From: Acidisoma sp. PAMC 29798
GTDB taxonomy: Bacteria; Pseudomonadota; Alphaproteobacteria; Acetobacterales; Acetobacteraceae
NCBI RefSeq assembly: GCF_030252425.1
Contig: NZ_CP126994.1
Coordinates: 1,364,001-1,428,000, forward strand
DNA length: 64,000 bases
Direction of reading: 5' to 3'
Below are positions 20,303 to 31,058 of this stretch, one piece after another. A model generated the notes under the pieces. It was given only the letters and a program-made list of their open reading frames with translations, was not told the origin of the DNA and did no database searches. How positions within the stretch are numbered: position 1 is the first letter of the stretch; every line of letters begins with the position of its first letter. A program made the translations under genes and the position numbers.

Positions 20303-20473
20303 ATGAGAATGAGCAAGAAATCGCCGCCGGCCGCCGAATCGGTGGACCGCGAACCGTCTGACGAGCCGACGCCGAAGGGCGAGGCGCCCCCGGTCTCACC
20401 AGATGACGAGCCCAAGGGCCACCCGACCAGCGATCGGTTTCGGACCGAGTCCGCGAAACCGACGCAGACATAG
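20303..20473 (+). CDS. Small hydrophilic hypothetical protein, 56 residues
   Basis: Starts ATG at 20303 (or two codons on) after a GGGAGG ribosome site. The product is short and Pro/Glu/Asp/Lys-rich, with no hydrophobic segment (for example SDEPTPKGEAPP), and is probably disordered. I do not recognise a family. Its stop is 11 bases before the likely start of the first CheW gene, which has no good ribosome site of its own, so it may serve as a leader whose translation feeds that gene. Coding is plausible but unproven. Confidence 0.5.
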   Translation: MRMSKKSPPAAESVDREPSDEPTPKGEAPPVSPDDEPKGHPTSDRFRTESAKPTQT

Positions 20474-20483
20474 CGTCAGGAGC

Positions 20484-20960
20484 TTGACCGGGCCGATCGC
20501 CATTCTATCGCTGCGCGTCTCGGGGCAGTCGCTCGCGATCGCGCAGACTGAGGTGATCGAGGTGCTGCCGGTGCCGAGGCTCGCGACGGTGCCCGAGGCA
20601 CCGGAAATGGTCACTGGCGCCTTTCGGCTGGGCGCGGAAACGGTCTTGGTGATCCGCCTCGCGACCTTGCTGGGTCTGACGGCCCAACCCGAGGGGGATG
20701 CGCTCTATCATCATCTCTTGCTGCTGCCCGCCCGCGATGGCGCCGCGCGGCTGGCGCTGTTGGTCGATCGTGTCACCAACCTACATCGCATCGAGCCCAC
20801 GCTGCTGCCGGCGGGTCATAGCTTCAATGACTGCGTGACGGGCGATGTGCAGATCGACGGCGCGGTGGTGCCCTTGCTGGCCGTGGCCCGGCTGCTGACG
20901 GCGAAGGATCTCGCCTTCGCCGAGGCCTTCGCGCTTCGGGCGGAGGCGCGCGGCGTATGA
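20484..20960 (+). CDS. CheW-like adaptor protein (first)
   Basis: About 158 residues of CheW fold, from ILSLRVSGQSLAIAQTEVIEV through the conserved middle ALLVDRVTNLHRIEP to VVPLLAVARLL. CheW proteins join chemoreceptors to CheA. There is no ATG at a suitable place: TTG at 20484 is the best candidate, with AGGAG too close to it, so the start is uncertain and coupling to the small upstream gene is likely. The frame is open back to 20403. The stop overlaps the CheR start (ATGA). It is the first recognisable gene of the chemosensory operon. Confidence 0.82.
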   Translation: MTGPIAILSLRVSGQSLAIAQTEVIEVLPVPRLATVPEAPEMVTGAFRLGAETVLVIRLATLLGLTAQPEGDALYHHLLLLPARDGAARLALLVDRVTNLHRIEPTLLPAGHSFNDCVTGDVQIDGAVVPLLAVARLLTAKDLAFAEAFALRAEARGV

Positions 20961-22321
20961 CCGCGCCAGACGGATCCTTCGCGGCTCTCAAGCAGGCGAT
21001 CATCGCCCGCACCGGCCACGACTATTATGCCGACAAGGACCGCTTGCTGCGCGACCGCCTGGAACGACGGCTGACCGTCACCCGTGCGGCCGGACTGCCG
21101 GATTATGCGCGCCTGCTGCACGATCCGGTGGCAGGCGCCGCCGAATGGGCGGAGCTGGAAGCCGAGATCACGATCGGGGAGACGTTCTTCTTCCGCCACG
21201 CGGAACAATTCGCTGCGCTGAAGGACGTGATCCTCCCCGCGATCATTGCCGAGAACCAGGCAACCCGCCGCATCCGCATCTGGAGCGCCGGCTGTGCGGT
21301 CGGCGCCGAGCCCTATTCGGTCGCCATCCTGATGGAGCGCATCTTGGGGGAGGCGCTGGCTGATTGGACCATCGAGATCATCGGCAGCGATATCAACCAC
21401 CGCTGCCTGACCCAGGCCCGTGAGGGACGTTTCAGCGGCTGGGCGCTGCGCGGCATGACGGAGGCCGAGAAAACGCGGGATTTTCTGCCGAGCCCCGATG
21501 GCCGCCACTGGCATATCGATCCACGCCACCAGCCGCGCACCCGGTTCATGCGGCACAATCTGCTCAGCCTGCTCGATGGCACTTCTCCGCCAGACGTCTC
21601 CGATTTCGACCTCATCCTCTGCCGCAACGTGCTGATCTATTTCGGGCCTGATCAGGTGCCGGGGATGCTGTCCGCGCTGGCAGACTGCCTGAAACCCTCT
21701 GGCTGGCTGATGGTCGGTCATTCGGACGCCGTCGTCGGCGTACCGGCGGCTCTGGGCGTCGTGCAGCTTCCAGGCACCCTGGCATTCCGCCCGCCCGGCT
21801 GCGGCACGCCGGCGCCGCTAGCAAACCCGCCCCCGCCTGTCGAATGGCCGGCCTTCACCGTCGAAAAGCCCGCTCGCCGCGTTCCTGCGCGACTGCCTCA
21901 GCCCGAACCCGTCGCGGTCGATCCGGTGCCGATACCGGCGATCCGGGCGCTTGCGGATCTCGGCGCGCTGGACGAGGCCACCGCCGCCTGCGCCGCGGCC
22001 ATCGTTGTGCATCCGCTGGACCATCGTCTGCACTTCTATGACGGTGTCATCGCCCAGGCGCGGGGCGATATTGCGAGGGCCGAGGCCGCCTTGCGCCGCG
22101 CCATCTATCTCCGTAACGACATGGTCATGGCCTATTACCATCTCGGTCTGCTGCTGATCGACGGCACGGCGCGTGAGGCCGGACGTCGGATGATGGAGCA
22201 GGTCATCACCCTGTGCGCCGCGCTTCCGCCGTCTGCGATCCTGCCCGAGAGCGATCATCTGCGGCCCGGCGATCTGCGCGGGCTGGTCGGTCAGCGCCTG
22301 CGCCCGGTCGGTATGCCCTGA
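20957..22321 (+). CDS. CheR-type receptor methyltransferase with TPR-like tail
   Basis: A 454-residue protein. Residues 1-275 are a CheR methyltransferase: ITIGETFFFRH in the N-terminal lobe, IWSAGCAVGAEPYSVA as the S-adenosylmethionine site and FDLILCRNVLIYF in the core. After a Pro-rich linker, residues about 315-440 form helical TPR-like repeats (DHRLHFYDGVIAQARGDI). This is the layout of WspC and FrzF rather than of flagellar CheR. It would methylate glutamates of the neighbouring MCP. Its stop overlaps the next ATG by one base. Confidence 0.92.
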   Translation: MTAPDGSFAALKQAIIARTGHDYYADKDRLLRDRLERRLTVTRAAGLPDYARLLHDPVAGAAEWAELEAEITIGETFFFRHAEQFAALKDVILPAIIAENQATRRIRIWSAGCAVGAEPYSVAILMERILGEALADWTIEIIGSDINHRCLTQAREGRFSGWALRGMTEAEKTRDFLPSPDGRHWHIDPRHQPRTRFMRHNLLSLLDGTSPPDVSDFDLILCRNVLIYFGPDQVPGMLSALADCLKPSGWLMVGHSDAVVGVPAALGVVQLPGTLAFRPPGCGTPAPLANPPPPVEWPAFTVEKPARRVPARLPQPEPVAVDPVPIPAIRALADLGALDEATAACAAAIVVHPLDHRLHFYDGVIAQARGDIARAEAALRRAIYLRNDMVMAYYHLGLLLIDGTAREAGRRMMEQVITLCAALPPSAILPESDHLRPGDLRGLVGQRLRPVGMP

Positions 22322-22800
22322 TGGACGCGGCGCGCCTCCAAGTGCTCGATCGTCGCACGGCGGCCCTTGCCGGACGTTTGGCCGATGCGATCGTCGTCGA
22401 GTCTCGGCCCAAAATCATCTGGTGCCTCGGAGAGTCGCTGTTCGGCATCGACCCGGAGATGGTGTCGGCCGTTATTCCCTATCCCGGCTGCACCGCCGTG
22501 CCCGGCCGCCAGTCGGCGGTGCTCGGCGTGATGAGCCGCAGGGGCCGTTTCTACAGCGTGATCGGCCTGCGGCGGCTGATGGCCATGGCCGAGGATGTCG
22601 CGCCCAGCCACCTGCTGCTTCTACGCGGGCCCGCGCCTTATCTCGCTTTGGCGGTCGATCGTGTGCTGGGTCGGCTTGATGTCGCGGTGCCCCCATCGCC
22701 CGATGCCCCCGCCGTGATCCTCGGCACAGCGGGTGAGGGGCGTCTCGTCACGCTGTTCGACCCACGACAGATACTGCGGCGGCTGGGTCACGCCGGATGA
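22321..22800 (+). CDS. CheW-like adaptor protein (second)
   Basis: About 159 residues from the ATG that overlaps the CheR stop. The CheW fold begins near residue 25 (KIIWCLGESLFGIDPEMV) and includes VLGVMSRRGRFYSVIGLRRLM and LALAVDRVLGRLDV. The N-terminal 25 residues are an extra helix-like extension. Two different CheW proteins flanking CheR is the same arrangement as WspB-WspC-WspD. It probably links the MCP encoded just downstream to CheA, alone or in competition with the first CheW. Confidence 0.85.
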   Translation: MDAARLQVLDRRTAALAGRLADAIVVESRPKIIWCLGESLFGIDPEMVSAVIPYPGCTAVPGRQSAVLGVMSRRGRFYSVIGLRRLMAMAEDVAPSHLLLLRGPAPYLALAVDRVLGRLDVAVPPSPDAPAVILGTAGEGRLVTLFDPRQILRRLGHAG

Positions 22801-22822
22801 GTTTTTCAGGAGTTGATACCAG

Positions 22823-24511
22823 GTGACGATCGCCGCCCGCCTTTTTCTCGGTTTCCTGCTCAGCGTCCTGATGTTGGTGGGTGTCGGCTTGCTCAGCCTC
22901 AACCTCGTCGGCCGCTTGCGCGACACCACACAGGCCATCGCCGCCCATGACATCTGGGCCTATCGCGTTGTGCAGCGCATCCTCCAAAGCCAGATCACCT
23001 TGATCGACGCCCGCCGGGCTGCCGTGGTCGAGTTCATGATGCCAAGCCCCGTCCTCCCGGGCGCCCCGCCGAAAGGCGTCGACCCGGCCGTGACCCGCTG
23101 GCGCGCGGAGGCGGACCGCGCGGCAGCGGCTTTGGCGGATGCCATCGCGGTCGCCAGTGGGTTCGAGCAGCAGTCGATCACCCTCGACGTTCCAGGTCGC
23201 GCGGCGACCTGGCATGAGGTCGTGCGCCTGTTCCAGCAGGCGCAACTCCAATTCACGTCCCTCCGCGCCGATTCCGAGACGCAGTTCGATTCCATTTCCA
23301 CGGGTGACACCAAGTCGGTCGTGGCGTCCGAGCCCAAGCTGCTCAGCGAAAACGTCGCTTTCGGCCAGACGATGCTTCAGGCCGAGGACGCCTTGCAGAC
23401 CGGCGACAAGGCCGGCCAGCAACGCGTGGATGATCTCACCGCCCAGGTGCGCATGATTCTGGTGACGTCGGTGGTGGTCGCACTTCTTGCCTCGCTGCTG
23501 ATCGCTTGGAGTGTGCGGCGCTCGATCATGCGGTCGCTCGATGCTTTTGCGGGTTTCGCCGAACAGGTCGGTAGCGGGGACCTGGGTGGTCAGCCTTTGA
23601 CCGTGGGCCGCGACGAGCTTGGCCGGTTGGCCGCTGCGTTGAACCATATGGTCGAAAGCCTGCGGCAGATCGGCCGCAAGAGCCAGGAGATCACCAGCAC
23701 GCTGAATGCCTCGGCGGCGCAGATCCGCGCCTCGACCCAGCAACAGGCCGCGAGCGTCGAGGAGCAGTTGGCCGCCATCCAGGAAACGGCCGCGACGGCG
23801 GATGAGATCACCCATTCCGGCGCCCGCATCGCCAGCCGCGCGCAGGAAGTGATCCAGGCGGCCCAGGCGTCGGTCGCGACCAGCGCGAATGGCCTGCGCG
23901 CTGTCGCCGAAGCCGCCCGCGCCATGGACGCCATTCGCGACCAGGGCGAGATGGTCGCGTCCAATATCGTGGCCCTGAGTGAAAAGACCCAGGCGATCGG
24001 TGAGATCATCATGACCGTCAACGACATCTCCGAGCGGTCGCATCTGCTGGCGCTGAATGCCGCGATCGAAGCGGCGGCGGCCGGGGAAAGCGGTCGCAGC
24101 TTCGCGGTCGTCGCGTCCGAGCTGAAGGTGCTGGCCGATCAGGCCAAGGACGCCACCATCCAGGTGCGATCGATCCTGGGTGAGATCCAGCGCGGCATCA
24201 ATACCTCGGTCATGTTGACGGAGGAGGCGGTCAAGCGCGTCGCCGTCGGGCGTGAGCGGTCCGACATCACCGAGCGCGCGATCGAGGAGATCACCGCCAG
24301 CGTGCAGGAAAGCGTGCAGACCTTCCAGCAGATCGTCGCCTCCACCAATCAGCAGCAGATCGGCATCGAACAGGTCATGGGCGCGTTGCAGAGCATTCGG
24401 CAGGCGAGCCAGCAGACGGCATCCGGCACGCGGGAACTGGAAACGGCGGCGGCCAGTTTGTCCGAGCTTTCGGGGCAGCTGTTGGCGCTGTCCGATCGCT
24501 ACCGGACTTAG
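22823..24511 (+). CDS. Methyl-accepting chemotaxis protein
   Basis: A 562-residue receptor with a GTG start. Membrane helix 1 is at about residues 7-29 and helix 2 at 209-231, enclosing a helical periplasmic domain of about 180 residues with no family that I recognise. A HAMP domain (RSIMRSLDAFAGFAEQV to about residue 280) and a long coiled-coil signalling domain follow. The tip reads ISERSHLLALNAAIEAAAAG, close to the standard but with RSH where QTN is usual and Ala for Arg. No C-terminal CheR/CheB tether pentapeptide is present. It would report to the hybrid CheA of this operon. Confidence 0.93.
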   Translation: MTIAARLFLGFLLSVLMLVGVGLLSLNLVGRLRDTTQAIAAHDIWAYRVVQRILQSQITLIDARRAAVVEFMMPSPVLPGAPPKGVDPAVTRWRAEADRAAAALADAIAVASGFEQQSITLDVPGRAATWHEVVRLFQQAQLQFTSLRADSETQFDSISTGDTKSVVASEPKLLSENVAFGQTMLQAEDALQTGDKAGQQRVDDLTAQVRMILVTSVVVALLASLLIAWSVRRSIMRSLDAFAGFAEQVGSGDLGGQPLTVGRDELGRLAAALNHMVESLRQIGRKSQEITSTLNASAAQIRASTQQQAASVEEQLAAIQETAATADEITHSGARIASRAQEVIQAAQASVATSANGLRAVAEAARAMDAIRDQGEMVASNIVALSEKTQAIGEIIMTVNDISERSHLLALNAAIEAAAAGESGRSFAVVASELKVLADQAKDATIQVRSILGEIQRGINTSVMLTEEAVKRVAVGRERSDITERAIEEITASVQESVQTFQQIVASTNQQQIGIEQVMGALQSIRQASQQTASGTRELETAAASLSELSGQLLALSDRYRT

Positions 24512-24530
24512 TGGTGGTGCCCGTATATAC

Positions 24531-24606
24531 CCTCGTCATCCACAGGCTTGACCCGCGGATCCATACGCGCCCATGGATCCGCGCATCAAGTGCGCGGATG
24601 ACGAGG
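24531..24606. repeat. Family B intergenic palindrome, full-length copy
   Basis: Outer arms CCTCGTCATCC (24531-24541) and GGATGACGAGG (24596-24606) are perfect inverted repeats, and inner arms CGCGGATCCAT (24554-24564) and ATGGATCCGCG (24573-24583) are too. It lies between the MCP and CheA genes, inside the chemosensory operon, and could lower transcription or stabilise the upstream message. Confidence 0.8.
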
Positions 24607-24630
24607 GGAAGCGGTGGCGGCGCGTAATCC

Positions 24631-26724
24631 ATGTCCGACTTCCGGCAGGAACTGCTCGCGGCCTTCGACGCCGAATACCGCGACCACCTCGCTGTGGTCC
24701 GCGCGGCGCTCGGTGTCGCGCGGCGCGGTGGTGCTGCCGATCGGCAGGACATCTTCCGCCGTATCCACTCCCTCAAGGGCGCCGCCCGTGCCGTCGATCT
24801 GCCCGCCGTCGCCAGCCTGTCGCATGACCTCGAAGCCTTCCTCGCCGGCTTGATCGAAAACGGCGAAACGCTCGATCGCGCGCGGATTGATGTCATCGAG
24901 CGGGGTCTCGATGACATCGAAAGCACCATCACCGGCGCCTCCGCCGAACCGGATGCACCCGCTGACGAACCCGCCCTCGGCTATGTCCGCGTCGAGCAGG
25001 CGCAGGTCGCCGATCTTGCTGCGGCCGCTGTCCAACTCGCCCAGGCGGTCGAACGGCATGACGGTCTCGGCGCGCGTTTGCTGGCGATCGAGCAATCGGC
25101 CCGCCGCGCCCGCCGCGCCCTCGAACCGCTGCTGCACGCGGCCAATGCGCCGCCCGCGCTTGTGGAGGTCGCTGCCGAACTCACCGTCACGGCGCGCGAC
25201 AGTGCCGGCGCCCGCCATGCCTTCCGGGACTCAGCCTGGGCCTTGGACGGCGCCTTGCGCCGCGTGCGCGAGGATGTAGATCGCATCGGCCTTGTCGCCG
25301 CCGAGACGGTCTTCGGGCCGATGGCACGCATGCTGCGCGATCTGGCACGCGACGAAGGTGTGGAGATCGATGCCGATTTCCGGGGGCTGGAGCTTCAGGC
25401 GGATCGCCGTGTCCTCCAAGGTCTGAAGGATGCCGTCCTGCAATTGCTGCGCAATGCCGTTAGTCACGGCACGGCCTCGGCCGCTTATCGGCGCGGCCGG
25501 GGCCTGCCTGCCGCCACCCGCATCACCCTGATGGTGAAGACCATCAACGGCCGGCTGATCGTGACCGTTTCGGATGATGGACCGGGCCCGGATCTTGAGG
25601 CCATTCGCGCCCGTGCCCTGGCAAGGGGCCTTCTCACGCCGCGCACCGCGCCTGAGGCGACGCCCGAGCAACTGATGGCCTTGGTCTTCGAGCCCGGCTT
25701 TTCGACCCGGCCGGATGTCGGCCAGCTCTCAGGTCGGGGCATGGGCCTGTCCATCGTCGCGGAAGCCGCCCGCAGCCTGCACGGCACCACCCAGATGCTG
25801 CGCCGCTCTGGTGGCGGCACGGCGGTCGAAATCGCTGTGCCGCTGTCCGTTGCCCAGCAATCTGCGATCCTGATGTCCTACGGCGATCAGATCGCCGCCG
25901 TGCCCTCGGCGGCGGTCGCAGGCCTGCTGCGCGTGCGGTTAGACCGGATCGAACCGGTGGGCGGCCGCATGTGTGTGCGCCCGGATGGCCCCGGTACGGC
26001 GCGCGCCGCGCCGGTCGCGCTGCTGTCGGACTTGCTCGGACACACAGGCGCCGGCCTGCCGTCATCGGACGGCTATGTGAAACTCGCGATCCTGCGCGGC
26101 AGCCATGGCGGCGCGGATCTCGCCATCGCCGTCGATCACTTTCAGGATGTGCGCACCTTCCTCGTCCATACCGCCGAGATCGTCGGCCTCGACACCGACC
26201 TCGTCTCGGGCTTTGTGTTGCTGGAGAACGAGATCGTCGCGCCCTTGCTCTCGCCGGACGGGCTGAGTGCCGCCGCCCATCGGCACGGTGGCTGGGCGGG
26301 CGATACGCGCGCGGTGACGCAGGTCGCTGGGCCACCGCGACCCCATAAGATCCTGGTGGTCGATGACTCCCTCACCAGCCGCACGCTGGAAAAGAGCATC
26401 TTGGAGGCCCAGGGCTACCGCGTCGTCACGGCGGTGGATGGGCTGGCGGCACTAGACTTGTTGCGATCCCTGATCGGTCATGGGCCGGAGGGTGCGGTTG
26501 ACATGGTCCTCGCGGATGTCGAGATGCCGCGCATGGATGGATTTTCCCTTCTGGAAGCCATGAAGAGTGACCCGGCACTCGCCGGCATTCCCGTCATCAT
26601 GATGACGTCGCGGGAAGCCCCCGCCGATGTGCGCCGTGGGCTCGACCTGGGCGCCAGCGCCTATATCGCTAAACAGACCTTTGATCAGCGCGACCTTCTG
26701 GGCGCGATCGGGCGGCTGCTGTGA
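24631..26724 (+). CDS. Hybrid CheA histidine kinase with C-terminal receiver
   Basis: A 697-residue kinase. The Hpt domain has phospho-acceptor His46 (RIHSLKGAARAVDL). The ATPase domain shows an N-box (LLRNAVSHG), G1 (VSDDGPGPD) and G2 (GRGMGLSIV). A CheW-like domain follows (AILMSYGDQIAAVPSAAVAG), and residues 572-697 are a receiver with acceptor Asp629 (VLADVEMPRMDG). This is the WspE/FrzE/CheA3-type hybrid. The attached receiver may act as a phosphate sink or select the output partner. The family B repeat separates it from the MCP, and its stop overlaps the cheB start. Confidence 0.95.
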   Translation: MSDFRQELLAAFDAEYRDHLAVVRAALGVARRGGAADRQDIFRRIHSLKGAARAVDLPAVASLSHDLEAFLAGLIENGETLDRARIDVIERGLDDIESTITGASAEPDAPADEPALGYVRVEQAQVADLAAAAVQLAQAVERHDGLGARLLAIEQSARRARRALEPLLHAANAPPALVEVAAELTVTARDSAGARHAFRDSAWALDGALRRVREDVDRIGLVAAETVFGPMARMLRDLARDEGVEIDADFRGLELQADRRVLQGLKDAVLQLLRNAVSHGTASAAYRRGRGLPAATRITLMVKTINGRLIVTVSDDGPGPDLEAIRARALARGLLTPRTAPEATPEQLMALVFEPGFSTRPDVGQLSGRGMGLSIVAEAARSLHGTTQMLRRSGGGTAVEIAVPLSVAQQSAILMSYGDQIAAVPSAAVAGLLRVRLDRIEPVGGRMCVRPDGPGTARAAPVALLSDLLGHTGAGLPSSDGYVKLAILRGSHGGADLAIAVDHFQDVRTFLVHTAEIVGLDTDLVSGFVLLENEIVAPLLSPDGLSAAAHRHGGWAGDTRAVTQVAGPPRPHKILVVDDSLTSRTLEKSILEAQGYRVVTAVDGLAALDLLRSLIGHGPEGAVDMVLADVEMPRMDGFSLLEAMKSDPALAGIPVIMMTSREAPADVRRGLDLGASAYIAKQTFDQRDLLGAIGRLL

Positions 26725-27806
26725 ATGCCACGCCACCCGCGGCCGGCCGCGCGCCACGCCGCGTGCGGGTCATGGTGGTGGAAGACTCTGCCGTCGTGCG
26801 CAGCCTCCTGTCCCATATCATCGCCTCCGACCCACGGCTCGAAGTCGTTTCAACAGTGCCATCGGCGGAGGAGGCGATCGCCGCCATTCCACGCGTCAAG
26901 CCCGATGTCATTTCCATGGACATCCGGCTGCCCGGCATGGATGGGCTGGAGGCGACGCGCCACATCATGTCCCACCACCCGACGCCGATCGTGGTGATCG
27001 CCGATGCGGTGGGGGATCGGTCGCTTGCCATTTCGATGAATGCGTTGCGCGCCGGGGCCCTCTCTGTGGTCGAGAAGCCGGCCGGGTTTGCCCATCAGAA
27101 CCATGCGGCGATCGCCGAGACGATCCGCACACAGCTCTATATCATGAGCCAGGTTCCGGTCATTCGCAGGCGGACGATTGGCGTGCGCCTCCACCCCGCA
27201 GATGTCGCGGGCATCGATCGGCTCCCCGGTCGGCCGCAGATGGCCGCGATCGTCGCCTCCACCGGTGGGCCGCCCGCGCTTGCCCGGCTGCTGGGCGCGC
27301 TGCCGGCCGATGTCCCTGTGCCCATTTTGATCGTGCAGCATATGGGCGCGCCCTTCATGCATGGCTTCGCCACATGGTTGAACGGCATCGTGCCCCAGAC
27401 CGTCAGCCTCGCCGTCGCGGGCGAGGTGCCGCTGCCGGGCCATGTCTATGTCGCGCCCGGCGACCAGCATCTGACCGTGGCGGCGGATGGCACCCTGCAC
27501 CTTGGCCATGGCAAGCCGGTCGCCGGCCAAAGACCCTCCGGCAGCGTGTTGTTCCAGTCCCTCGCCACCGTCCTTGGGGCACGGGCCATCGGTGTGCTGC
27601 TGACGGGCATGGGCGATGATGGCGCCCAGGGCCTGCTCGCCATGCGCCGCGCCGGGGCGATCACCATCACCGAGGATGAGAGCAGTGCCGTGGTCTATGG
27701 CATGCCGGCTTCCGCCGTGAAGATCGGGGCGTCCGGCGCCAGCCTGCCGCTCGATCGGATCGGGCATAGCGTGTTGCGCGCGATCACCGCAGGCGCACCC
27801 TCATGA
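26721..27806 (+). CDS. CheB-type methylesterase response regulator
   Basis: A 361-residue protein with a GTG start overlapping the CheA stop. Residues 15-135 are a receiver (VMVVEDSAVVRS) with acceptor Asp67 (VISMDIRLPGMDG). The esterase domain shows the catalytic serine region IVASTGGPPAL, the histidine region IVQHMGAPF and the aspartate region LLTGMGDDGAQG, all intact. It would remove methyl groups added by the CheR protein and reset the receptor, under phosphorylation by the hybrid CheA. Confidence 0.94.
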   Translation: MNATPPAAGRAPRRVRVMVVEDSAVVRSLLSHIIASDPRLEVVSTVPSAEEAIAAIPRVKPDVISMDIRLPGMDGLEATRHIMSHHPTPIVVIADAVGDRSLAISMNALRAGALSVVEKPAGFAHQNHAAIAETIRTQLYIMSQVPVIRRRTIGVRLHPADVAGIDRLPGRPQMAAIVASTGGPPALARLLGALPADVPVPILIVQHMGAPFMHGFATWLNGIVPQTVSLAVAGEVPLPGHVYVAPGDQHLTVAADGTLHLGHGKPVAGQRPSGSVLFQSLATVLGARAIGVLLTGMGDDGAQGLLAMRRAGAITITEDESSAVVYGMPASAVKIGASGASLPLDRIGHSVLRAITAGAPS

Positions 27807-27819
27807 GGAACACAGCCTG

Positions 27820-29544
27820 ATGGCCGAGGGAAGCGTGCCGCGCATGCCCAGCCTGCTGGTTGTCGAGGATTCCGAAACCCAGGCTCTCGTCATTCGCCGC
27901 ACCTTGGAGCGGCATGGGTTTCAGGTCGATCGTGCGGCCTCGGCCGAGGCGGCGCTCGATCATCTCAACCGCAAGCTGCCCGATCTCGTCATCGCCGATT
28001 ACCACCTGCCGGGCATGAATGGTGGCGAGTTGTCGCGCCAGATCCGGCTGAACGGCCGCACCCGTTCCATCCCGCTTCTCATGCTGACCGAGGCCGCCGA
28101 AGCGGATACCGAGCGTGAGGGGCTGGAAAGCGGCGCCGACGCCTATGTGTCCAAGTCGGCCGACATGGACTTCATGATCCTGCGCATTCGCGCCTTGCTG
28201 CGGCAACGGCCTGCGGTGCAGAGCGCGGGCGATGAAAGCCAAACGGTGGAAACGCCCCACTTCCGGCGCATCCGCTTCCTGGTCGTGGATGATCAAGCCG
28301 GCAGCAGCGTGGCACTGCGGCGCTTGCTCGAAAAGGATGGCTATCTGGTCGATGACGTCGCGTCCCTTGACGCGGCAAAGGTCGCTCTTACGGATGCCGC
28401 CAATCCGGTCGATTGCGTGCTCGTCACGCTGCATGCCACCCGGTTCGACAGCGTGGAGCTGTGCCGCAGGCTCGACGTATTGCGCCAGGCGGAGATCGCC
28501 GAACGCGGCGCATCCCGTTTCCTACTCGTCGGCATCGAGCGCGATGGCGACGAACCGAAGGAGCTTCTGGCCCGCGCCTTCGATGCGGGGTTGGACGAGT
28601 TCATTCCGCCCGCGCTGGATGAGGGTGTCGTGCGAGTACGCCTGCGCGCCATCGTGCGGCGGAAGCTGCTGCAGGATGAGATGCAGCAGGCGGAAGTCGA
28701 TCGTCGCAATCGGGCGGTCACGCTGGAACGCGCGCGGATGGCCGAGGCCCTGAGTCAGGCCAATATCGAACTGGGCGCCATCAACACCAAGCTGGTCGAA
28801 ACCCAGGCGAAGCTGGTGCAGGCGGCGAAAATGGCCTCGCTGGGTGAGCTGGTGGCCGGCATTGCGCATGAAATCAACAATCCGCTCGCCTTCATCCTGG
28901 CCCATCAAGGCACGGTGGAGCGGCTGCTCGCCAAGGTCGGCGCTGGGGAAGGCACCGATGAGGCGGCGCGCGCCGTCATCGCCAAGGCCCGGGACCGCAC
29001 CATGGCCATGGGCACGGGCCTCAAGCGCATTCAGGACCTGGTGCTCAACCTTCGCCGCTTTTCGCGCATGGATGAGGGCGGCTTTCAGAACGTCGATATC
29101 TTCGAAGCGATCGATACGGTATTGACGCTATTGAGCCCGAAACTGGGTGACCGCGTGACCATCAGCCGGCGTTATGACGGGCCGTCCGTGCTGTGGTGCT
29201 CACCCGCCTTGCTCAATCATGTGGTCATGAACATCGTCAGCAACGCGGCGGATGCGATCGCGGGACCAGGCCGGATCGCGATCGCGACGGAGGTGGGGCA
29301 GGGTGGCTACATCATCCAGATCGACGATTCTGGGCCCGGCGTGCCGGATGCGTTGCAGGAGCGTGTCTTCGAACCCTTCTTCACCACGAAGGACATCGGC
29401 GCCGGCACTGGCCTTGGCCTCGCAATCGCCTATACCGTTGTGCAGGCCCATAAGGGCACCATAACGGTCGGGCGCTCCGCGCTCGGCGGCGCATCCTTCA
29501 GGATCGTGGTGCCCACGGCATCGCAGGCGGCAACGGGAGAATGA
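27820..29544 (+). CDS. Soluble histidine kinase with two N-terminal receivers (CheS3-like)
   Basis: A 574-residue protein without membrane segments. Receiver 1 (residues 10-130) has VVEDSETQ and acceptor Asp60 (VIADYHLPGMNG). Receiver 2 (about 147-270) keeps VVDDQAGSS but has Thr203 where the acceptor Asp should be (CVLVTLHATRF). A coiled coil at about 285-335 leads to HisKA with His350 (GIAHEINNPLAF) and an ATPase domain with GTGLGLAIAYT. The layout is that of CheS3, the kinase controlled by a chemosensory CheA in Rhodospirillum centenum, as I recall it. It lies directly behind cheB, 13 bases on. Confidence 0.9.
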   Translation: MAEGSVPRMPSLLVVEDSETQALVIRRTLERHGFQVDRAASAEAALDHLNRKLPDLVIADYHLPGMNGGELSRQIRLNGRTRSIPLLMLTEAAEADTEREGLESGADAYVSKSADMDFMILRIRALLRQRPAVQSAGDESQTVETPHFRRIRFLVVDDQAGSSVALRRLLEKDGYLVDDVASLDAAKVALTDAANPVDCVLVTLHATRFDSVELCRRLDVLRQAEIAERGASRFLLVGIERDGDEPKELLARAFDAGLDEFIPPALDEGVVRVRLRAIVRRKLLQDEMQQAEVDRRNRAVTLERARMAEALSQANIELGAINTKLVETQAKLVQAAKMASLGELVAGIAHEINNPLAFILAHQGTVERLLAKVGAGEGTDEAARAVIAKARDRTMAMGTGLKRIQDLVLNLRRFSRMDEGGFQNVDIFEAIDTVLTLLSPKLGDRVTISRRYDGPSVLWCSPALLNHVVMNIVSNAADAIAGPGRIAIATEVGQGGYIIQIDDSGPGVPDALQERVFEPFFTTKDIGAGTGLGLAIAYTVVQAHKGTITVGRSALGGASFRIVVPTASQAATGE

Positions 29545-31058
29545 CGGCGACGATGGCGACGAGCAGCGGGGGTGCCATGAGCAGCGGGGAGCGCGGCACG
29601 ATCCTGATCGTGGACGATGAACCCGAAATCCTCACAGCCCTTCGCGATCTTCTGGAGGATGAGTTCGACGTCTGGAGCGCCGTCTCACCGCTGACCGCCT
29701 TGGAGATTTTGGCAGACGAGCCGAGCATTTCCGTCGTCGTCTCCGATCAGCGGATGCCGGAGATGACCGGTGACGTGCTGCTCACCAAGGTCCGCGAGAT
29801 CTCCGATGCGCAGACAATCCTTCTGACCGGCTACGCGGATCTCGATGCCGTGGTCAGCGCGATCAATAATGGTCGCATCTCAGCCTATGCGCAAAAGCCG
29901 TGGGAGCCGACGCTGCTGATGAGCATGGTCGCCAATGCCCATGAGCAATGCCATTTGCGGCGCGCGCTGCGGCTGGAACAGGCTCTGCTGCGTGGCTTGA
30001 TGGATGGCAGCCAGGATCCGGTCTCCTTCAAGGACAGCCAGGGCCGTTTCGTCCGTCTCAATGCCGCCAAGGCTGCGTCCCTCGGTCATCCGGTGGAGGC
30101 GTGTCTGCATCATCGGGAGCCGGAGCTGATCGGCGTCGTGGAGGAGGCGGCAGGCATCGCGGCTGCGGAAGCCGAGGCTTTCGCCCTTGGCCATGGCATT
30201 GAAAAGATCGAGGAACGGACGGGGCCGAACGGCACGCGGTTCATCCAGGTCAGCCGGGTGCCGATTGTCGGGCAGGACGGCGCGCCGGCCCGGATCGCGA
30301 TCTTGGAGCATGACATCACCGATCGCCGGTTGATGGAAAACCGCCTGTATCAAGCGGAGAAGATGCAGGCCCTCGGCACCATGGCCGGCGGCGTCGCGCA
30401 TGACTTCAACAATCTGCTGACGGCCATTCTTGGTAGTCTGGAACTGGCGCTTCGGCGTAATGATGGCGATGCACGGCTGGAGCGGCTGTTGCAGAACGCG
30501 ACCATGGCGGCCGAACGCGGAACGACACTGACGCAAAGATTGCTGACCTTCAGCCGGCAACGCGACCTGTCCCTGCGCTCGGTCGATGCGCGCCAACTCA
30601 TCCATGAAATGCAGGATCTCATCCTGCGCAGCATCGGGTCGGGCATCACGGTCGAGGAGGATTTGGCGCCGGACCTTTGGCTCGCGCATGTCGATCCGGA
30701 TCAGCTCGAACTCGCACTCCTAAATCTCTGCATCAATGCGCGGGATGCGATGCCGGACGGCGGCCACCTTGTGCTCGCAACGCGTAACGTGGTCGTGCGT
30801 GAGACGGATGGGTTTGATCTATCGCCTGGCGATTACGTGGCGATCGGCGTGCGCGACACGGGCACAGGCATTCCAGCCGATGTCATCACGCGCGTGTTCG
30901 AGCCGTTTTTCACCACCAAGCCCATCGGCAAGGGCACCGGCCTCGGCCTGTCGATGGTCTATGGTCTGGCACAGCAGGCGGGTGGCGTCGCGCGCGTCAT
31001 CAGCCCGCCGGGCGGCGGGACGACGGTCGAGATTTTGCTGCCACGGGCGAGTGCTTAG
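29541..31058 (+). CDS. Soluble receiver-PAS-histidine kinase
   Basis: A 505-residue protein without membrane segments whose ATG overlaps the previous stop (ATGA); later ATGs at codons 5 and 13 are possible starts. Receiver with acceptor Asp69 ([12 protein letters not shown]) and the [16 protein letters not shown] pattern of RpfG-like receivers. A PAS domain (residues about 150-275) is followed by HisKA with His287 ([14 protein letters not shown]) and an ATPase domain ([13 protein letters not shown]). There is no C-terminal receiver, so it must hand its phosphate to another protein not encoded here. It is the last gene of the operon. Confidence 0.9.

Follow-up and report, generated by a model that had tools for sequence, protein, structure and literature searches.

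A chemosensory operon of Acidisoma sp. PAMC 29798 that ends in two histidine kinases, and a kinase receiver whose active site follows CheA

The stretch analyzed here, referred to as the window, comprises 64 kb of the 4.99-Mb genome of Acidisoma sp. PAMC 29798 (C1:1364001-1428000; contig NZ_CP126994.1). At 20403-31058 it harbors eight chemotaxis-like (che) and kinase genes, all on the + strand, which open reading frame (ORF) reading and Pfam assigned, in this order, to CheW1, CheR-TPR, CheW2, a methyl-accepting chemotaxis protein (MCP), CheA with a receiver (REC) domain, CheB, and two soluble histidine kinases, designated HK1 and HK2. Most of the genes overlap or are closely spaced, the widest gap being 119 bases between the MCP and CheA genes, and both the one-directional operon and, by Pfam, the gene names that an initial annotation had proposed from the sequence alone were confirmed. 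Comparison within one family, most likely the Acetobacteraceae, revealed that the first receiver of HK1 keeps its active site in relatives that possess this CheA and mostly loses it in those that do not, while the receiver of HK2 is kept in both. These results suggest that CheA may signal into HK1 and that HK1 may in turn signal into HK2. The genes are as follows:

20403..20960, + strand: CheW1 (Pfam CheW, 61 bits); the real start is possibly further downstream
20957..22321, + strand: CheR methyltransferase with a C-terminal TPR-like part (Pfam CheR_N and CheR, CheR at 149 bits; TPR by eye only)
22321..22800, + strand: CheW2 (Pfam CheW, 54 bits)
22823..24511, + strand: membrane chemoreceptor (MCP) with HAMP (Pfam HAMP and MCPsignal)
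24631..26724, + strand: CheA with C-terminal receiver, P1 His46 and REC Asp629 (Pfam Hpt, HATPase_c and Response_reg)
26721..27806, + strand: CheB methylesterase with receiver (Pfam Response_reg and CheB_methylest; NCBIfam CheB above cut-off)
27820..29544, + strand: HK1, composed of REC1 (Asp60), pseudo-REC2 (Thr203), a long helix, HisKA (His350) and HATPase
29541..31058, + strand: HK2, composed of REC (Asp69), PAS_4, HisKA (His287) and HATPase (Pfam)

In the Pfam scan, CheA showed no CheW domain and CheR no TPR, and HK1 gave one receiver only. Among the CheA homologues, the P1 histidine is present in all 43 readable sequences (of 45, two lacking that part) and the receiver aspartate in 45/45. 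The frame of CheW2 is open from a GTG at 22213, and the ATG at 22321 was judged the more likely start. The operon had initially been taken to begin at 20303, which had to be corrected: the CheW1 frame opens at 20403, and the ATG at 20303 belongs to a 56-codon, Pro/Glu/Asp-rich ORF (20303-20473) that is read in a different frame and extends into the beginning of the CheW1 frame. A stretch resembling this ORF (DEPKGHPTSDRF or near) was observed upstream of CheW1 in 4/4 other genomes of the genus searched.

REC1 of HK1 carries Glu16, Asp17, Asp60 and Lys112 as site residues. The second receiver, which escapes Pfam, had already been proposed in the initial annotation and is supported by an AlphaFold model and by an NCBIfam match in which residues 11-299 align with both PleD receivers (101 bits, under the model cut-off of 474); it is a pseudo-receiver encoded at 28273-28674 of the window, with Thr203 instead of Asp at the phosphorylation position. 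The HK1 model (14 sequences; mean predicted local distance difference test (pLDDT) 77, predicted template modeling score (pTM) 0.51) contains both receivers and a helix spanning residues 268-375, with low confidence in residues 331-360 (pLDDT about 50-56). In a Foldseek comparison with the PDB, chains of LvrB ranked top by E-value at a TM-score of 0.25 and a root-mean-square deviation of 28 Å, that is, a domain-by-domain likeness only, and the PleD structure 2wb4 aligned over 296 columns at 3.2 Å. HK1 shows the LvrB-type layout, an N-terminal receiver joined by a long helix to the dimerization/histidine phosphotransfer and catalytic domains. Pfam assigned HisKA and HATPase_c and detected neither PAS nor HWE_HK in this protein. 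HK2 has CckA as its best NCBIfam match (332 bits, best stretch 165-503), far under the cut-off of 1000.

The initial annotation had suggested a gene-neighborhood search with the two kinases, which proved informative. A first survey of 60 relatives yielded a near-full-length HK1 with adjoining HK2 in 14 genomes including the host, all from one family. Among 299 genomes of this family, HK1 was found in 81 and was followed directly by HK2 in 81/81, while a CheA orthologue (at least 250 bits) occurred in 44, all of them among the 81 with HK1; lower-scoring matches in G164 (188 bits, 33% identity) and G007 (second match, 174 bits) were not counted. CheA and HK1 share one stretch in 42 of the 44 genomes; in G025 CheA lies on another contig despite 10 kb being present upstream of HK1, whereas in G013 the separation coincides with the ends of both contigs. 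Among the matches listed, the full operon also occurs in the named records of Komagataeibacter sp. FXV3, three Methylobacterium and Pseudoroseomonas cervicalis, which points to Acetobacteraceae as the most likely family of the 299 genomes. Since 42/299 genomes have CheA and both kinases within a single stretch and the full operon recurs in named genera, the grouping is not due to chance. An HK1-like kinase also adjoins an HK2-like kinase in a Polyangiaceae metagenome-assembled genome, whose locus starts shortly upstream; this record served as outgroup only.

For residue comparisons, the che+ set (n = 48) comprised the 44 CheA genomes, G316 and three named loci, and the che- set (n = 37) comprised 36 genomes and Acetobacter oeni, which, like the other named loci, was judged on its own stretch rather than on the whole genome. 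G316, with no CheA match and a piece of CheB at the contig edge, was treated as che+ for residue counts only, and G153, whose genes are broken, was included among the 37 for HK1 residues, was unreadable for HK2 and was left out of the tree described below. REC1 was scored as intact if it had an acidic residue at position 16, Asp17, Asp60 and Lys112.

By this measure, REC1 was intact in 48/48 che+ sequences compared with 2/37 che- sequences, and Glu16, Asp17, Asp60, Thr90 and Lys112 were each invariant throughout the che+ set. His350 of HK1, in turn, was present in all 85 sequences (48/48 and 37/37), and the HK2 receiver site (Asp25, Asp26, Asp69 and Lys119) was complete in 48/48 che+ and in 36/36 readable che- sequences. 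At 50-60% HK2-kinase identity, REC1 identity was 0.66 in che+ pairs versus 0.49 in che- pairs, with corresponding values of 0.60 and 0.62 for the HK2 receiver and of 0.63 and 0.61 for the HK1 kinase, and in every bin REC1 identity fell short of the HK1-kinase value for che- pairs and exceeded it for che+ pairs. The strength of the REC1 pattern is that its controls are internal, residing within the same proteins and the same genomes.

Several observations weigh against reading this decay as the consequence of a lost CheA input. Taken singly, the REC1 positions are eroded unevenly in the che- set, with Asp17 kept in 2/37, Asp60 still in 15/37, Lys112 in 21/37 and Thr90 in 32/37 sequences; the commonest loss is that of Asp17, in 8 cases to Glu, so that function may survive, and two che- genomes (G026 and G106) retain the full site. 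The drop in REC1 identity is smaller in the three higher bins (che+ versus che-: 0.71/0.69, 0.84/0.78 and 0.91/0.87). Conservation of REC2 is higher for che- pairs than for che+ pairs (0.50 versus 0.35 in the 50-60% bin), which our model leaves unexplained; the REC2 phosphorylation position is often Asp or Glu, with the acidic pair mostly missing in che- rows and the Lys mostly missing in all rows. Finally, there are three independent losses at most, and with a median p of 0.25 in a sign test statistical significance is out of reach.

These losses were placed on a tree of 84 rows built from HK1-kinase and HK2 columns, with REC1 left out. The best tree contains three changes of che status, all three forced by the starred branches, and accordingly three che- groups: a clade of 28, a clade of seven to which A. 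oeni belongs, and the single row G017. The G017 row is long and unusual in composition, and its position on the tree is uncertain, which further tempers the count. The sister of the 28-member clade is G076, whose stretch (L187) contains a CheW-like frame, MCP, CheA, HK1 with intact REC1, and HK2, with no match to CheR or CheB, and thus appears intermediate between a complete operon and the absence of the che genes. Diverged CheB-like frames (28-31% identity) adjoin HK1 in two che- stretches (A. oeni L072 8964-9896 and G318 L205 10928-11908) that have no match to the operon-type CheA; the A. oeni frame lacks the SxGG motif in the copy read, and we regard both frames as relics. The tree alone does not separate loss from gain, but given these relics and the che+ basal groups, loss of the che genes with both kinases kept is the simpler reading. 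In Komagataeibacter, the operon lies between genes that we take to be FtsE/FtsX-like and HslV/HslU-like. HslV or HslU was found beside the kinases in 22/37 che- and 24/48 che+ stretches, and HslV/U together with FtsE/X flanked them in 17/37 and 16/48, respectively, the surroundings of the remaining stretches, A. oeni included, being different or outside coverage. As both sets share these flanks, the kinases evidently stayed at one place, at least in part.

Based on these observations, we infer a non-flagellar chemosensory array, of the kind with an alternative cellular function, whose output would be a serial kinase cascade, a reading to which we assign an even chance. MCP, CheW and CheA would form the sensor, with CheR and CheB adapting the array and the C-terminal receiver of CheA probably serving as a phosphate sink. 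Phosphorylated CheA is predicted to phosphorylate Asp60 in REC1 of HK1. This entry point is favored because the REC1 site follows the presence of CheA, and CheA most likely acts through REC1 as CheA3 does on CheS3 in Rhodospirillum centenum, where CheA3 phosphorylates REC1 of CheS3 and brakes this kinase (PMC3868531). REC1 and pseudo-REC2 would then constitute a PleD-like input module that acts via the long helix on the HK1 dimer and sets its kinase activity. Phosphorylated REC1 is more likely to be a brake on HK1 than an essential switch, because the HK1 kinase is conserved where the REC1 site is lost; against this sign stands LvrB, whose kinase is activated by receiver phosphorylation (PMC13269768). 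HK1 would further phosphorylate the receiver of HK2, since this site outlives CheA and must have a donor other than CheA, and HK1 is the partner present in every case. A kinase-to-kinase precedent is provided by LvrA, which phosphorylates the LvrB receiver (PMC5863495). Thus, both kinases remain likely outputs of the operon, as the initial annotation had held, although its picture of two parallel outputs gives way, with only REC1 of HK1 following CheA, to a proposed serial chain in which HK2 lies downstream of HK1.

The HK2 receiver could, however, be phosphorylated by HK2 itself, and in the alternative that weighs most against this chain HK2 is independent, its own kinase serving its N-terminal receiver, with CheA-HK1 as a branch of its own that meets HK2 further on, at a shared regulator. 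Conservation of the HK2 receiver requires HK2 alone, and R. centenum CheA3 offers a parallel in that it phosphorylates its own receiver (PMC3868531); yet HK1 and HK2 stand side by side in 81/81 genomes, even where the che genes are absent, and we therefore consider this arrangement rather unlikely. A decidedly unlikely alternative is that CheA phosphorylates both receivers and each kinase addresses its own response regulator, as intact N-terminal receivers in both kinases next to CheA might suggest. The persistence of the HK2 receiver site in every readable CheA-less sequence, where REC1 decays, argues against it, as does the single intact orphan regulator common to three small genomes described below, the latter being a partial test because these genomes lack this CheA. 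It is very improbable that the link is merely operonic, with the che genes controlling something else and REC1 decaying as a side effect of genome reduction: the che-less genomes are indeed small (1.9-3.7 Mb) and the losses few, but in these very genomes the active sites of the other HK1 and HK2 domains persist, REC1 is retained in che+ genomes of 3.3-3.7 Mb, and REC1 is intact in G025 even though the che genes lie on another contig. A role of this CheA in flagellar motility, by way of a CheY from another locus, could draw on the second che cluster of the host genome, which is located about 1.06 Mb away and equipped with CheB, CheR, CheY-like receivers and CheX. It appears scarcely credible nonetheless, as that cluster has a CheA of its own, and neither a separate CheY among the receiver matches of the 64-kb window nor a flagellar family among its 54 ORFs scanned with Pfam was found (flagella elsewhere in the strain were not searched), in agreement with what had been noted initially.

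In the preferred serial chain, HK2, or the pair, would hand its phosphate to a distant response regulator. Of 57 receiver matches genome-wide, the four in the window are those of CheA, CheB, HK1 and HK2, which supports the expectation of a final regulator encoded elsewhere. A response regulator adjoining HK2 was considered and rejected, as the extra receiver seen in relatives (38/48 che+ sequences; absent in the host genus and some others) is a C-terminal domain of HK2 itself; in G017, which is che-, a 166-aa protein of its own carries the receiver that follows HK2. The search for the target proceeded by elimination: for G060, G162 and G097, all of them small genomes, every receiver, HisKA and HATPase domain was listed and kinase-regulator pairs were judged by distance. 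Each has six kinases, namely HK1, HK2 and four with an adjoining regulator, four other HATPase frames per genome being assigned, solely on their length, to gyrase, topoisomerase, MutL and HtpG. All three possess an unpaired CenR-like OmpR-type regulator with intact Asp and an unpaired CtrA-like regulator without the phospho-Asp (a truncated frame in G060), and G162 has in addition an unpaired 128-aa single-receiver protein. By eye, the CtrA-like proteins of G097 (L235), G162 (L234) and G060 (L240) carry Glu or Ala at the phospho-Asp position. The resemblance of the HK2 kinase to CckA prompted us to consider a ChpT-to-CtrA phosphorelay, which we rejected for now, given the scarcity of ChpT and the missing phospho-Asp in the small-genome CtrA-like proteins: ChpT (PF10090) was above cut-off in 1/12 genomes searched (G020), a further match in G013 was below cut-off and inside HK2 itself, and none was detected in the host genome or in G097, G162 and G060.

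This leaves the CenR-like orphan as the best candidate for the final regulator, an assignment that we nonetheless regard as doubtful. The host genome encodes one at C1:1896146-1896829 with the Asp present. The name is our assumption, drawn from a sequence resemblance, and no NCBIfam match shown bears it. According to PMC9275681 and PMC10746171, genes for the envelope and for division are under CenR control in other alphaproteobacteria, with CenK as its kinase in the species named, and no clear CenK was found in Brucella. The CenR-like regulator occurs in 278/299 genomes and does not co-vary with the kinase pair; its kinase therefore cannot always be the HK1/HK2 pair. It is present in 80/81 HK1 genomes; the exception, G025, carries both kinases but yielded no match to this regulator, which also speaks against the assignment. 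The complete proposal, a three-tier chain from CheA to HK1 to HK2 in which the array serves as a removable input to two kinases governing a CenR-like regulator of the cell envelope, is accordingly one that we put forward as unlikely in all its parts at once.

Comparison with characterized systems supports the analogy to R. centenum Che3 that had been drawn from the outset. Che3 (PMC3868531) shares with the present operon a CheA with P1 His and C-terminal REC, two CheW, CheR, CheB and an MCP, as well as a soluble kinase in the cluster whose REC1 carries the Asp and whose REC2 does not. It differs in that CheS3 is a PAS-HWE kinase, whereas HK1 is of the HisKA type with no PAS found, and in that the operon studied here has the second kinase HK2 and no CheY3 in the cluster. 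Azospirillaceae combine a similar che core with other outputs: Indioceanicola has CheR-MCP-CheA-CheB in the same order, with no CheW matched there, and its REC-REC'-PAS-HWE kinase of the CheS3 type aligns with HK1 at 37% over the receiver part and helix. On large plasmids, Azospirillum ramasamyi has the order CheW-CheR-CheW-MCP-CheA-CheB as annotated and A. brasilense Sp 7 the order CheW-CheR-MCP-CheA-CheB by matches; in Azospirillum, however, the genes behind the che core encode a two-receiver protein and then a HisKA kinase with C-terminal REC. In this two-receiver protein after cheB (L263 10540-11337 and L262 10531-11295), Pfam detects the second receiver only, the reverse of HK1.

The proposed likeness to the Wsp system of Pseudomonas was confirmed in part. 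The protein set is the same, with CheR-TPR (TPR by eye here), two CheW, MCP, CheA-REC and CheB in one operon, whereas the gene order is not, as the MCP gene comes first in Wsp, and neither Pfam nor the receiver matches revealed a WspR-type REC-GGDEF output in the operon. The Lvr system of Leptospira (PMC5863495 and PMC13269768) likewise contains a kinase controlled through its receiver, with a second kinase as phosphate donor to that receiver, as predicted here; it differs in that the first donor in our case would be CheA in a chemoreceptor array and that HK1 has a PleD-like double receiver. PleD itself (REC-REC'-GGDEF) aligns with HK1 over the double receiver, but the effector of HK1 is a kinase, not a diguanylate cyclase, and the CckA likeness of HK2, its best NCBIfam match, remains far below cut-off in a host genome without ChpT. 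Because the HWE kinase, CheY3 and the Wsp output are all absent, we file the operon under neither Che3 nor Wsp; it is a variant of the Che3/CheS3 kind with an exchanged kinase and an added tier. No description of such a two-kinase variant was found in the open-licence PubMed Central literature.

Many non-flagellar chemotaxis-like systems have no known output, and the relatives without CheA provide a natural, deletion-like case in which one receiver decays and its counterpart stays, which hints at where the signal enters. REC1 decay thus predicts an order of the kinases, turns a guess of two outputs into an ordered chain and leads to a candidate regulator, in organisms that can be cultured (Komagataeibacter, Methylobacterium), and the comparisons show an exchange of output modules behind a conserved che core. 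If the full proposal were true, lineages that unplug the array would keep the kinase pair as a stand-alone system, evolution could remove chemoreceptor arrays from the front of ordinary two-component systems, and perhaps also add them there, and Komagataeibacter and other acetic acid bacteria would regulate envelope or exopolysaccharide genes through such an array.

The nearest neighbors of the operon in the window are mostly metabolic, with genes for a copper amine oxidase, an amino acid permease, a glycosyltransferase, MsrA and PfkB-GatZ. Elsewhere in the host genome, C1:1646884-1649162 encodes a protein that combines receivers with an Hpt match and, as judged by eye, a GGDEF domain; further receiver genes lie beside it.

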